From contig NZ_JAMGSL010000007.1 in the NCBI RefSeq assembly GCF_025195125.1, forward strand, positions 186,001 to 250,000: a stretch of 64,000 bases of DNA, written 5' to 3'. Of this stretch, positions 1-19,244 are shown piece by piece (position 1 is the first letter of the stretch; the number at the start of each line of letters is the position of its first letter). The DNA is from Streptomyces sp. Je 1-79. Lineage in GTDB: Bacteria; Actinomycetota; Actinomycetes; Streptomycetales; Streptomycetaceae. The position numbers and the translations under genes are program-made. A model generated the notes under the pieces. It had not been told where the DNA came from. It saw only the letters and a list, made by a program, of their open reading frames with translations, and did no database searches.

Positions 1-1180
1 ACTTGAGGAGCTTCCGCGCCTTCTCCGGGTCGGTCTCGCCCTCCCCGTACGCCGGGCAGAGCGGGGCGATCGGGCAGGCGCCGCAGGCGGGCTTGCGGGC
101 GTGGCAGATCCGGCGGCCGTGGAAGATCACGCGGTGCGAGAGCATCGTCCACTCGCTCTTCGGGAAGATCTCGGCGACCTCGGCCTCGATCTTGACCGGG
201 TCGTCGCTCTCGGTCCACTTCCAGCGGCGCGCGAGGCGCATGAAGTGGGTGTCGACGGTGATGCCGGGCACCCCGAAGGCGTTGCCGAGGACGACGAAGG
301 CGGTCTTGCGCCCCACGCCGGGCAGCTTGACCAGGTCGTCGAGGCGGCCGGGCACCTCGCCGCCGAAGTCGTCCCGGAGGGCCGCGGCGAGGCCCATGAT
401 CGACTTGGTCTTGGCGCGGAAGAAGCCGGTGGGCCGGATCACCTCCTCGACCTCCTCGGGGACGGCGGCGGCCAGGTCCTCGGGCGTCGGGTACTTCGCG
501 AACAGCGCGGGGGTGGTCTGGTTGACCCGCAGGTCGGTGGTCTGGGCGGAGAGGACCGTGGCGACGAGCAGCTCGAACGGGTTCCGGAAGTCCAGCTCGG
601 GATGGGCGTACGGAAAGACGTCGGCCAGCTCCCGGTTGATCTTCCGGGCCCGGCGGACCATCGCGAGCCGCGATTCCGGCTTCGCGGGCTTCACGGCCGC
701 CTTCGAGGTCCTCGGCGCGGGGCTGGCGGCCGCCTTCGAGGTCCTCGGCGCGGGGCTGGCGGCCGCCTTCGAGGTCTTCGGGGTCTTCGGCTTGGCGCCC
801 GCCTGCGCCGTCGGCCTCGTACCCGCCGCGGCCTTCGTGCCGGTCTTCGCCGTCGCCTTCGCGGCGGGCTTCGTGCCGGTCTTCGCCGTCGCCTTCGCGG
901 CGGCCTTCGTGCCCGTTCTCGGCGTCGCCTTCACGGCGGGCTTCCCGGCAGGCTTCTCCGAGGACTCCGCACGCTTCCCGGCAGCGCTCTCCGGGGACAC
1001 CTCCGCGGGCTTCCCGGCAGCGCTCTCCGGGGACTTCTCCGCGGGCTTCCGGACGGCCTTCGTGGGGCGTTTAGCGGTATTTGTCCGCTTCGGCGCACCC
1101 TGTTCGCCCACAGCGGAATTACCCTTGGCCGACACTCTTCCAGCCCCCTTGGCCTGCGCTCTCACCGGCGAGTTGGACAC
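1..1180 (-). CDS. nth: Endonuclease III (C-terminal end beyond the window)
   Basis: Base-excision-repair DNA glycosylase/AP lyase for oxidised pyrimidines. The reading frame is open through the left edge, so the C-terminus is missing. The core starts near residue 174 and shows the helix-hairpin-helix [14 protein letters not shown] with the catalytic lysine, the motif [11 protein letters not shown] with the catalytic aspartate, and a complete [4Fe-4S] loop with spacing C-x6-C-x2-C-x5-C. In front of the core lies about 170 residues of Lys/Ala/Pro/Thr-rich repeats resembling histone H1 or HU-tail sequence, far longer than in E. coli Nth. The start is taken as GTG at 1180, the first start after an in-frame stop near 1190; later GTG codons would shorten only the tail. 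It is divergent from crp. Confidence 0.93.
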
Positions 1181-1285
1181 CCGGCCAGCCTAAGGGCCAC
1201 CACCGACATCCGCCCTGGGCATGGCCGATCACGACCCAATCGGGCCCCTGGCGTACGGACGGGCGGTTCGGTACGTCAAACTTGT

Positions 1286-1311
1286 TGTGATTGATCGCAC
1301 TGTTTTGTGCG
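1286..1311. promoter_or_regulatory. Crp-like operator sites upstream of crp
   Basis: TGTGATTGATCGCAC at 1286-1301 fits GTG-N8-CAC, the spacing I recall for Streptomyces Crp targets. It overlaps a second inverted repeat, CGCAC-N6-GTGCG at 1296-1311. The sites lie about 55-80 bases before the crp GTG, in the divergent nth/crp gap, so autoregulation is plausible but inferred. Confidence 0.4.
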
Positions 1312-1364
1312 TCCGGCATCATGGGATCAAGGTCCCCTGAGCAGGTCGACATAGGAGAGAACTC

Positions 1365-2039
1365 GTGGACGACGTTCTGCGGCGCGCCCCGCTCTTCGCG
1401 GCGCTCGATGACGAGCAGGCCGCGGAGCTGCGCGCCTCGATGAGTGAAGCGACGCTCGCCCGTGGCGACGCGCTGTTCCACGAGGGAGACCCCGGCGACC
1501 GCCTGTACGTGGTCACCGAGGGCAAGGTGAAGCTCCACCGCACCTCCCCGGACGGCCGCGAGAACATGCTGGCCGTCCTCGGCCCCGGCGAGCTGATCGG
1601 CGAACTCTCGCTCTTCGACCCGGGCCCGCGCACCGCCACCGCGACCGCGCTGACCGAGGTCAAGCTGCTCGGCCTCGGCCACGGCGACCTCCAGCCCTGG
1701 CTGAACGCCCGCCCCGAGGTGGCCACCGCCCTGCTGCGCGCGGTCGCCCGCCGGCTCCGCAAGACCAACGACCAGATGTCCGACCTGGTCTTCTCCGACG
1801 TTCCGGGCCGTGTCGCCCGCGCGCTCCTCGACCTGTCGCGCCGCTTCGGCGTGCAGTCGGAGGAGGGCATCCACGTCGTCCACGACCTCACCCAGGAGGA
1901 GCTGGCCCAGCTGGTCGGCGCCTCCCGCGAGACGGTCAACAAGGCCCTCGCGGACTTCGCCCAGCGCGGCTGGCTGCGCCTGGAGGCCCGCGCCGTGATC
2001 CTGCTGGACGTGGAGCGCCTCGCGAAGCGCTCCCGCTGA
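1365..2039 (+). CDS. crp: Crp/Fnr-family transcriptional regulator Crp
   Basis: Cytoplasmic DNA-binding regulator of 224 residues. Residues about 10-125 form a cyclic-nucleotide-binding fold with the motif PGELIGELSLFDPGPRTATA, which matches the phosphate-binding cassette. Residues about 150-215 form a winged helix with recognition helix LVGASRETVNKALADF. Length and sequence match Streptomyces Crp (SCO3571 in S. coelicolor), known to control germination, growth and antibiotic production. The GTG start is supported by AGGAGAG six bases upstream. A strong hairpin follows the stop. Candidate Crp-type operators precede the gene. Confidence 0.95.
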   Translation: MDDVLRRAPLFAALDDEQAAELRASMSEATLARGDALFHEGDPGDRLYVVTEGKVKLHRTSPDGRENMLAVLGPGELIGELSLFDPGPRTATATALTEVKLLGLGHGDLQPWLNARPEVATALLRAVARRLRKTNDQMSDLVFSDVPGRVARALLDLSRRFGVQSEEGIHVVHDLTQEELAQLVGASRETVNKALADFAQRGWLRLEARAVILLDVERLAKRSR

Positions 2040-16426: not shown

Positions 16427-17536
16427 TCAACCGCCTGGCGGCTGCTCGCGGCCCGGCAGCTGGGCCGCTCTCGCCGCCTCGGCCTCGGCCTTCGCGTCGC
16501 TCACGACGGCATCGGCCTGCTTCGCGACCTCATCGGCGGCCGCGGCAGCGTCGAGCGAGAACGGCGAGCCTGCCTCCAGCTCCGGCGCCGCGCCTTCGTC
16601 CGGCGCGCCGTCGGCATCGGTGGTGGTCGCTTCCTCCGGTGGCGCCGATGCGGGAAGACCCATCGTCGACTGATCGCCGAATGCGTGGGTGACGGCGCGA
16701 ACCGCCTCGGTCAGCTCCCCCGGGATCACCCAGAACGTGTTGTTGTCGCTCTTCGCCAGGTGCGGAAGCGTCTCGAGATACTTGTACGCGAGAATCTTCG
16801 GGTCGGCATTGTTGCGATGGACGGCCTGGAAAACGCGCTCCACGGCTTTCGCCTCGCCGTCCGCCCGCAAGATCATGGCTTGTTGCGTGCCCTGTGCTTC
16901 CAGGATGTCCTTCTGCTTCGTGCCCTCCGCGGTGAGGATCTTGGCCTGCCGCTCGCCTTCGGCGTGCAGGATGGCCGCGCGCTTGTCGCGCTCGGCCCGC
17001 ATCTGCTTCTCCATCGCCTCTTTGATCGTGTGCGGCGGATCGATGGCCTTGATCTCGACGCGGTTGACCCGGATGCCCCACTTGCCCGTGGCGTCGTCGA
17101 GGACGGTGCGGAGCCGGGTGTTGATCTCCTCGCGTGAGGTGAGCGTCTGCTCCAGGTCCATGGAGCCGATCACGTTCCGCAGCGTGGTCACGGTGAGCTG
17201 ATCGATCGCGTGCAGGTAGTCGGCGACCTCGTAGGCCGCCGCCCGCGGGTCGGTGATCTGGTAGTAGAGCACGGTGTCGATGTTCACCACGAGGTTGTCC
17301 TCGGTGATCACCGGCTTGGGCTCCGACGAATACACCTGCTCACGCACGTCGAGTTTGGTGTTGACACGGTCCGCGACCGGCAGGACGAAATTCAGCCCGG
17401 GTTGCAGCGTGCGCCGGTATCGGCCGAACCGCTCGATGTTGTAACGGCGCGCCTGCGGAACGATCCGCACCGTGGCAGCCACGAGAAAGACAACAACAAT
17501 CGCCGCCACAAGAATCGGGATGACAATCGGGTCCAC
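16427..17536 (-). CDS. SPFH/stomatin-like membrane protein
   Basis: A 369-residue protein of the stomatin/HflK-C class. One N-terminal helix (about residues 4-24) is followed by an SPFH domain with VRIVPQARRYNIERFGRYRR, LQPGLNFVLP and DPRAAAYEV. A coiled coil rich in AEGERQAKILTAEGTKQ comes next, then a Pro/Ala/Glu tail from about residue 295. GTG at 17536 has GGAGGAATT directly before it. It is downstream of an NfeD gene with only 29 bases between, the classic stomatin/NfeD operon; such pairs organise membrane microdomains and are linked to protease control. Confidence 0.9.
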   Translation of the reverse strand: MDPIVIPILVAAIVVVFLVAATVRIVPQARRYNIERFGRYRRTLQPGLNFVLPVADRVNTKLDVREQVYSSEPKPVITEDNLVVNIDTVLYYQITDPRAAAYEVADYLHAIDQLTVTTLRNVIGSMDLEQTLTSREEINTRLRTVLDDATGKWGIRVNRVEIKAIDPPHTIKEAMEKQMRAERDKRAAILHAEGERQAKILTAEGTKQKDILEAQGTQQAMILRADGEAKAVERVFQAVHRNNADPKILAYKYLETLPHLAKSDNNTFWVIPGELTEAVRAVTHAFGDQSTMGLPASAPPEEATTTDADGAPDEGAAPELEAGSPFSLDAAAAADEVAKQADAVVSDAKAEAEAARAAQLPGREQPPGG

Positions 17537-17565
17537 AATTCCTCCGCTGGGACGTGTTCAGCCGT

Positions 17566-18003
17566 TCACGGAAGCAGTTCGCGGGGATAGACGACGGCCG
17601 TGGCACCTTCGATCTCCATGACATCGACCAGCGCTCCCACCGGGATCACATGGCTTTCGTCGAGTGAGCGGGCGGACCAGTCCTCACCGGAGATCTTGAT
17701 CAGGCCGCGTGTCGCGGTGACCTCCTGCATGACCTCGGCCCGCTTGCCGATCAGCGCATCGCTGCCCTCACGTGTGAGGGGTTGCTGTGCCATGTGCCGC
17801 AGCGCGACAGGGCGGACGACGACGAGAGCCGCCGCAGCAGCCACCCCGAGCGCGACGAGCTGGCCGAGAAGGCCGATGCCCGCACCGGCGACCACGGCGG
17901 CGACCAGTGCAGCGCCCGCCAGCAGACCGAAAACCAGCGTCAGGGTGAAAAACTCCGCGACACCGAGCGCCGCGGCGGCAAGCAGCCATACGAACCACGG
18001 CAT
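17566..18003 (-). CDS. NfeD-like membrane protein
   Basis: A 145-residue protein with three hydrophobic segments in the first 75 residues (FVWLLAAAALGVAEFF onward) and a C-terminal OB-fold domain: GKRAEVMQEV, GLIKISGEDWSARS, IPVGALVDVMEIEGATAVV. The W-SARS and VDVMEIEGATAVV segments are characteristic of short NfeD1b proteins, which lack the N-terminal protease domain. It is encoded upstream of its SPFH partner. ATG at 18003 gives MPWFVW. Confidence 0.92.
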   Translation of the reverse strand: MPWFVWLLAAAALGVAEFFTLTLVFGLLAGAALVAAVVAGAGIGLLGQLVALGVAAAAALVVVRPVALRHMAQQPLTREGSDALIGKRAEVMQEVTATRGLIKISGEDWSARSLDESHVIPVGALVDVMEIEGATAVVYPRELLP

Positions 18004-18152: not shown

Positions 18153-18244
18153 GCCATCGCGCAACCGCCGTCACGCCACCGCCATCGCGCAACCGCCATC
18201 GCGCAACCGCCATCGCGGGCCGGCCCCCGTGGTGGCGGTTGCGC
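18153..18244. repeat. Five-copy 14-bp repeat ending in a hairpin
   Basis: Units of GCCATCGCGCAACC start at 18153, 18167 (variant), 18181, 18195 and 18209 (partial). The segment GCGCAACCGCC (18201-18211) also pairs with GGCGGTTGCGC (18234-18244), so the array's end forms an 11-bp hairpin 6 bases beyond the stop of the TipAS-like gene. It may act as that gene's terminator. Confidence 0.7.
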
Positions 18245-18250
18245 TCTCCC

Positions 18251-18916
18251 TCAGTGCAGCCTGGCGGTGGCGTACGACTCGATGGCGTCGCGCTGGAACG
18301 CGGCCAGCCCCGGGGCGATCGTCTCGTAGGCGGTGCGCCACGCGTCGTTGTCCACACAGGAGCGTCCGATGGCCCGGTACTCCTCGGCGGAGACGGCACG
18401 CAGCCGGGCCAGCGCCCGGTACTGGGCGTCGATCTCGGCCTGTACGGGATCGGCGTCGGCCGTGTTGCCCGCGGCCATGAGTTCGGCCAGCCGGATCATC
18501 TGCGCGGTGCGCTCACGGTGCCCGGCGTCGGCATCGGCCTGACTCATGGCGGCAGCGCGCCGTCCGACCTCCTCGGCGAGTTCGGGGAACTCGGACATGT
18601 TCTCCGCGTACTGGGAGGGCTGGACGCCCTCGAACAGGTTCTCCGGCCGGTTGATGGTCATGGGGTTGCCGTCCTTCCTGGACTGCTCCAGTTCGGCGAT
18701 CGTGCGGGAGACCGTGCCGGCCAGGGCATCGAGCCGGTCCCGCTCCGCGAGCAGCCGCCGGTGGTGGCCCCGCAGGGCATCCACCTCGTCGACCTGCTCG
18801 GACAGGATCCGGCCGATCACCGGCAGCCCGACGCCCAGCGCCCGCAGCACGAGGATCTGTTGCAACAGCAGAAGCTGGTGCTCGTCGTAGTAGCGGTGAC
18901 CGTTGGCGCAGGTCAC
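18251..18916 (-). CDS. TipAS-domain MerR-type protein lacking the DNA-binding helix
   Basis: The C-terminal half, from MTINRPENLFEGVQPSQYAE (ATG 18661) to PGLAAFQRDAIESYATARLH, is a TipAS domain, the ligand-binding part of thiostrepton-type regulators. The part before it, NGHRYYDEHQLLLLQQILVL and a helical linker, is the wing and dimerisation helix of a MerR regulator. The preceding helix-turn-helix is missing: the residues upstream are unrelated Ala/Val-rich sequence and the other two frames do not restore it. The start is therefore uncertain (GTG 18916, ATG 18961, or ATG 18661 for the TipAS domain alone). It may be a degraded gene or a stand-alone ligand binder like TipAS. Confidence 0.7.
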   Translation of the reverse strand: MTCANGHRYYDEHQLLLLQQILVLRALGVGLPVIGRILSEQVDEVDALRGHHRRLLAERDRLDALAGTVSRTIAELEQSRKDGNPMTINRPENLFEGVQPSQYAENMSEFPELAEEVGRRAAAMSQADADAGHRERTAQMIRLAELMAAGNTADADPVQAEIDAQYRALARLRAVSAEEYRAIGRSCVDNDAWRTAYETIAPGLAAFQRDAIESYATARLH

Positions 18917-19244
18917 GACCGTAGGAGCTGCCGCAACGGCAACTTCAACCCCGAGGACCATGTTTCTCGCACTCCGTCCGCTGCCGGAACCCCAGGCGGC
19001 GCCCCGCGCTTCGAAGTCACCCGGAGCATCAGAACGCTGCTCCCCGGCGGCACTTCTCCCGCGTCGGGACCGTCCTGGGCGCCAGACGCCGGGGCCCTCA
19101 GGTCTCACGCGCCCCCGTGGAGCCGGGGCGTGTGCAGGAAGTCGATCAAGCGGCTCTACCCTGTTACGGCATCGGTGCCGGACGGCGGAGTACGGCGACG
19201 CGTGCTCCTCTCAGGTTGTCGACCGTCGAAAGGCTGGGTCTCAG
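18917..19244. other. Divergent gap between TipAS-like gene and Ser/Thr kinase
   Basis: About 330 bases with no supported gene. This is where the missing helix-turn-helix of the TipAS-like protein would have been encoded; no trace is readable in any frame. It also must contain the kinase promoter. Confidence 0.45.

Follow-up and report, generated by a model that had tools for sequence, protein, structure and literature searches.

Does the TipAS-type gene of Streptomyces sp. Je 1-79 represent a natural stand-alone form of a drug-binding regulator, or a regulator in decay? The gene lies on the minus strand of the 64,000-nucleotide stretch of DNA that we analyzed (hereafter the window), where positions 18251–18910 encode a MerR wing, a dimer helix and a TipAS domain without a helix-turn-helix (HTH). 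Judging from comparison with its relatives, the likeliest account is a 5′ deletion of recent date, after which the allele could yield no more than the short drug-binding form, without regulation and perhaps at very low expression. The coordinates of its features are collected in Table 1.

Table 1. Sequence features of the TipAS-type gene in the window.
Feature	Position	Strand	Basis
MerR-type operator/promoter, TTGAAG – 19-bp spacer with dyad – TACGGT	18917–18948	-	Direct reading; orthologue comparison
Deletion junction, net 145 bp gone relative to G019 and L035	18909–18911	-	blastn coordinates and alignment
Remnant of wing and dimerisation helix, probably untranslated leader now	18662–18910	-	C-terminal half of Pfam MerR_1; L035 homology
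Internal Shine-Dalgarno sequence, AGGAAGGA	18672–18679	-	Duplex energy -11.7 kcal/mol; conserved
Predicted TipAS-type short protein, 136 aa, internal ATG 18661 to stop	18251–18661	-	Pfam PF07739, 49.4 bits
12-bp perfect inverted repeat after the stop, probable terminator	18201–18244 (arms 18201–18212 and 18233–18244)	-	Direct reading

The first-pass annotation had described a TipAS-type regulator lacking its DNA-binding domain and spanning 18251–18961. The lack of this domain was borne out. The frame is open throughout 18254–19108 (minus strand) and scores 46.6 bits against the Pfam TipAS profile (cut-off 23.8), and its match to MerR_1 covers only the C-terminal half of that profile (positions 32–68 of 69). 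The G019 orthologue matches MerR_1 over 3–68, as well as PF00376. Searching every frame of the window with the HTH segment of an intact relative returned no significant match (best bit score 20.8); the positive control, L035, scored 70.1 bits. The remnant shares 92% protein identity with the intact orthologue L035 from S. altiplanensis, so the coding stretch at 18251–18910 is not a product of chance. The annotated 5′ end did not hold, since ATG 18961 and GTG 19108 both precede the -35 box of the promoter that belongs to this gene; codons above about 18911 are thus promoter read in frame rather than protein.

Alignment with L035 located the loss. Window positions 18201–18909 match L035 with 93.8% DNA identity; past 18909, 146 L035 bases are absent with one base in their place, and the match resumes at 18911. 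Blastn coordinates and alignment gave the identical net loss against G019 and against L035. The missing stretch begins immediately 3′ of the -10 box and reaches the first wing codons; with it went the leader, the Shine-Dalgarno sequence and start codon of the long form, and the HTH. The short repeats CGTGACC and GCGCCA, read from the alignment, lie at or near the breakpoints in L035, which suggests that the deletion arose by microhomology. None of the 49 named relatives has this exact deleted form. At the 3′ end, blastn homology of L035, L005 and L085 begins at 18201, that is, at the terminator-like repeat. Short tandem repeats of the CGCAACCGCCAT type lie directly 3′ of the gene at 18160–18215, beside this inverted repeat.

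Each of the 72 full-length orthologues has an upstream equivalent of the promoter spared by the deletion, as a rule some 52 nt ahead of the start. Its spacing places the expected transcript start at about 18911, right on the junction. A MerR-type promoter whose spacer is 19 bp long has little activity unless its activator is present, and the tipA promoter of S. lividans also has MerR-type spacing. The window genome carries one TipAS gene in total, and because this sole copy has lost its HTH, no TipA-class activator, the only kind known for this promoter, is left there; each of the five other broken-copy genomes that we checked carries at least one further TipAS gene above the cut-off. Given such a promoter without an activator, the window gene may not be expressed at all. 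At 0–1 mismatches the window genome contained no operator copy besides that at 18917–18948, and weaker sites were in no excess over a reversed-pattern control.

The tipA gene of S. lividans uses two start codons to yield two products, according to the account in PMC7762955. The first-pass annotation had drawn a parallel to internal initiation of TipAS in S. lividans, and this parallel is well supported. In the window, the Shine-Dalgarno sequence of ATG 18661 reaches -11.7 kcal/mol, compared with -6.5 for the next best in-frame start (duplex energies computed against a 16S tail). Across 61 orthologues (the 72 minus those at least 99% identical), 58 have ATG and 3 have GTG as the equivalent start codon, and in 61/61 this conserved second start outranks every other internal in-frame ATG/GTG in strength. 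The arginine codon within the Shine-Dalgarno sequence is AGA or AGG in 56/58 cases, versus 41/1596 at other arginine columns, a background that omits the neighbouring linker column (AGA/AGG in 15/21). In divergent TipA genes (about 29–54% identity; a set of 28 not thinned for relatedness, with linkers that vary in sequence and length), a linker ATG or GTG at -8 kcal/mol or better was present in 28/28 and was the strongest of the internal in-frame ATG/GTG codons in 23/28. Only 28 of 741 other internal in-frame ATG/GTG codons reach -8 kcal/mol in the two sets together. This comparative evidence may extend the two-start design of S. lividans tipA to divergent actinomycete TipA genes. In the literature listings that we searched, neither this locus nor the conserved internal start was the subject of any paper, which does not by itself prove absence from print. 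As the deletion spared the internal start, the 136-aa TipAS-type protein is the sole well-signalled product, and the deleted allele plausibly makes this short protein at most.

The window gene resembles S. lividans TipA (TipAL/TipAS) in its MerR wing and dimer helix, its TipAS fold and a start just before the TipAS domain. It differs in lacking the HTH and hence a long activator; identity is low (23–26%). Thiopeptide capture in S. lividans relies on a cysteine, and neither Cys residue of the aligned TipA segment has a Cys counterpart in the window. The intact Streptomyces TipA-like MerR genes L035 and L005/G019, whose proteins are 92% and 90% identical to the window's in the part in common, have the same promoter and internal start, but retain the HTH and sit among other chromosomal neighbours. 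In Klebsiella, a TipAS-like albicidin-binding domain is assumed to be made both alone (AlbAS) and in a long MerR form (AlbA); the account in PMC6078987 assumes the short form by analogy only. AlbAS differs from the window protein in having two tandem TipAS-like domains, and its long gene has an HTH. A further parallel is a fragment from Streptomyces sp. Root431 (L080, identical in sequence to L114 of G338), in which the same promoter was independently fused by deletion to the TipAS region; there the deletion reaches into TipAS, leaving about 100 aa and a later ATG. A possible wider point is that selection keeps the two-product design, a long activator and a short drug trap, across divergent actinomycete TipA genes. 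The window offers a natural experiment in which the short-form start outlives the long form, and with it a chance to test what the short form does when the activator is absent.

Disruption of TipAS residues had been named as a finding that would speak against the annotated gene, and the domain proved to be intact and constrained over the branch, which does not refute it. The frame contains neither stop nor frameshift, and the 136-aa product alone scores 49.4 bits against PF07739 (cut-off 23.8). A structure model of this protein, built from 31 sequences, has a pLDDT of 82.6, and its top two PDB matches are S. lividans TipAS structures (2mbz and 1ny9; probability 1.00; E 2.9e-3 and 2.3e-2), followed by haemoglobins at lower probability. 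The window departs from near-invariant TipAS columns at 3 positions, and the other 30 sequences at 0–12.

For selection, we fitted 17 sequences with a two-ratio codon model, leaving out the misaligned junction codon. Omega on the window branch was 0.194 overall, compared with 0.098 in the one-ratio model (LRT 2.2; against 1, LRT 10.4), the second highest of 17 terminal branches. For TipAS it was 0.220 (against 1, LRT 6.3; against background, LRT 1.6) and for the wing 0.157 (against 1, LRT 3.9; against background, LRT 0.9). Neutrality over the whole branch is thus rejected, and this model detects no relaxation of selection on the window branch. An apparent relaxation of the wing (omega 0.34, 0.28) was an artefact of aligning a window Cys to Met1 of the relatives, and vanished without that codon. 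Single terminal branches are noisy: the HTH-intact L038 gave a TipAS omega of 1.19, and L042 one of 0.37. Each window-branch value is a whole-branch average that includes the time before the deletion and cannot date it, so the values are also compatible with neutral evolution since a deletion of recent date. The absence of relaxed selection may reflect recency of the deletion, continuing use of the gene, or the two together; because the wing is unrelaxed too, recency is favoured over a long-lived TipAS-only gene.

Orthologues, with identity up to 92%, were gathered from a draw of 392 genomes of the genus and from scanned genomes of named species. Comparison of the locus among named relatives gave a recognisable HTH in 46 of 49 (L035–L078, L082 and L083); L079 holds a damaged HTH remnant, and L080 and L081 have no HTH. 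Among close copies in the 392-genome draw, classified by eye, 62 were full-length, with no stop and at least 69% identity, and the other 10, which include the window, were broken. Four have lost the HTH side with the TipAS frame open (G000, G334, G338 and G207, the TipAS core alone remaining in the last two), four keep the HTH with TipAS broken (G342, G261, G045 and the second copy in G274), and two are damaged at both ends (G076 and G090, with frameshifts following similar deletions). Operator sequence stands beside a 5′ deletion in three copies besides the window (L080/L114, L116 and L118). A further draw of 394 genomes, queried with TipAS only, gave mostly full-length open frames, which were not classified one by one. 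That neither end is favoured speaks for random decay. Because nearly all relatives keep the HTH and breakage hits both ends about equally, the window gene looks like one sporadic broken allele rather than an established stand-alone lineage. The first-pass annotation had left open whether the gene stands alone by nature or is decaying; each was right in part, with a recent loss-of-regulator allele fitting best, and an established stand-alone lineage is not supported.

The setting of the gene varies. Most close relatives have differing neighbours, flanks being common only within a few species groups; 10 large plasmids of Streptomyces carry the gene at full length; and several relatives cease to be homologous just upstream of the promoter, at 18954–18974. 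By these comparisons this is a gene that appears to roam between locations. In the window its neighbours encode NhaA, SPFH, NfeD, a kinase and TetR. Neither NhaA, SPFH, NfeD nor TetR occurs in the flanks of the 49 named relatives, no flank DNA is shared with the window, and we found no shared neighbour or target gene for a TipA unit in those flanks. The SPFH/Band 7 and NfeD genes form a pair (16427–18003, minus strand) that is conserved as such in four or more other Streptomyces; the NfeD and SPFH loci of G009, G022, G007 and G005 (9.0, 5.7, 9.0 and 9.0 kb of DNA) contain no TipA match.

We propose the following history. The ancestor would have been an autoregulated single-gene TipA-type drug-response unit, its operator/promoter driving a long activator (MerR HTH plus TipAS), with a short drug-binding protein made from a second start within the same mRNA. 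The deletion removed the long-form start and HTH and fused the promoter to wing codons, keeping the promoter, the internal Shine-Dalgarno sequence, ATG 18661 and the entire TipAS frame. The transcript would begin at about the junction, ribosomes would initiate mainly at 18661 to make the 136-aa TipAS-type binding protein, and expression, with no TipA-class activator in the genome, would be basal and uninduced. Such expression would yield a weak, unregulated drug sponge at best, and this is the account that we think probable. The allele is probably recent and heading for loss, and loss of the HTH predicts no drug-induced autoactivation.

A plain pseudogene, with its activator deleted, its promoter silent and no product, is a real if lesser possibility. 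The intact TipAS frame would then reflect recency only, and the similar constraint on wing and TipAS is what a recent deletion predicts. Breakage in about 10/72 close-clade copies, on the HTH side, in TipAS or at both ends, and the frameshifts in G090 and G076 agree with this explanation, but the TipAS frame, internal Shine-Dalgarno sequence and promoter are all intact and the branch omega is far below 1. We consider it very improbable that a start above 18661 yields a dimer of wing, dimer helix and TipAS that is blind to DNA. The frame is open to 19108 and offers in-frame GTG 18916, TTG 18865, GTG 18850, GTG 18820 and GTG 18784, but no upstream start exceeds the -6.5 kcal/mol given above, and ATG 18961 and GTG 19108 would be off this promoter's transcript. 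That the true genome has an HTH, lost here through an assembly or sequencing error, is very unlikely: the sequence comes from a single assembly of 30 contigs and its exact form recurs in none of the 49 named relatives, yet a clean 145-bp deletion without a long repeat would be an unusual assembly error, and the deletions in L080/L114, L116 and L118 are independent, with other breakpoints in other assemblies. Beyond the weak sponge that we favour for the window, 5′ deletion might turn TipA sensors into functional, promoter-driven, immunity-only sponges, with the window and, independently, Root431/G338 as examples; we regard this generalization as rather unlikely.

Several other loci showed further rearrangements. 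In L083 (S. rubiginosohelvolus), the linker and the first part of TipAS are gone (about 297 bp), and in L081 (S. anulatus) the promoter and HTH; both lie at one chromosomal site common to the S. globisporus/anulatus group. In L117 of G334 (about 1790–1940), the TipA wing is interrupted by a MITE-like insert of roughly 160 bp whose ends form inverted repeats, GGTGTCTGGCA...TGCCAGACACC, and the internal start and TipAS are still open. The same genome carries two near-identical 163-aa frames with full TipAS domains, L147 (about 1139–1480, minus strand) and L148 (about 1418–1759, plus strand); no HTH was seen upstream in any frame of the strand concerned, and these TipAS genes apparently do stand alone, with no relation to the deletion in the window.
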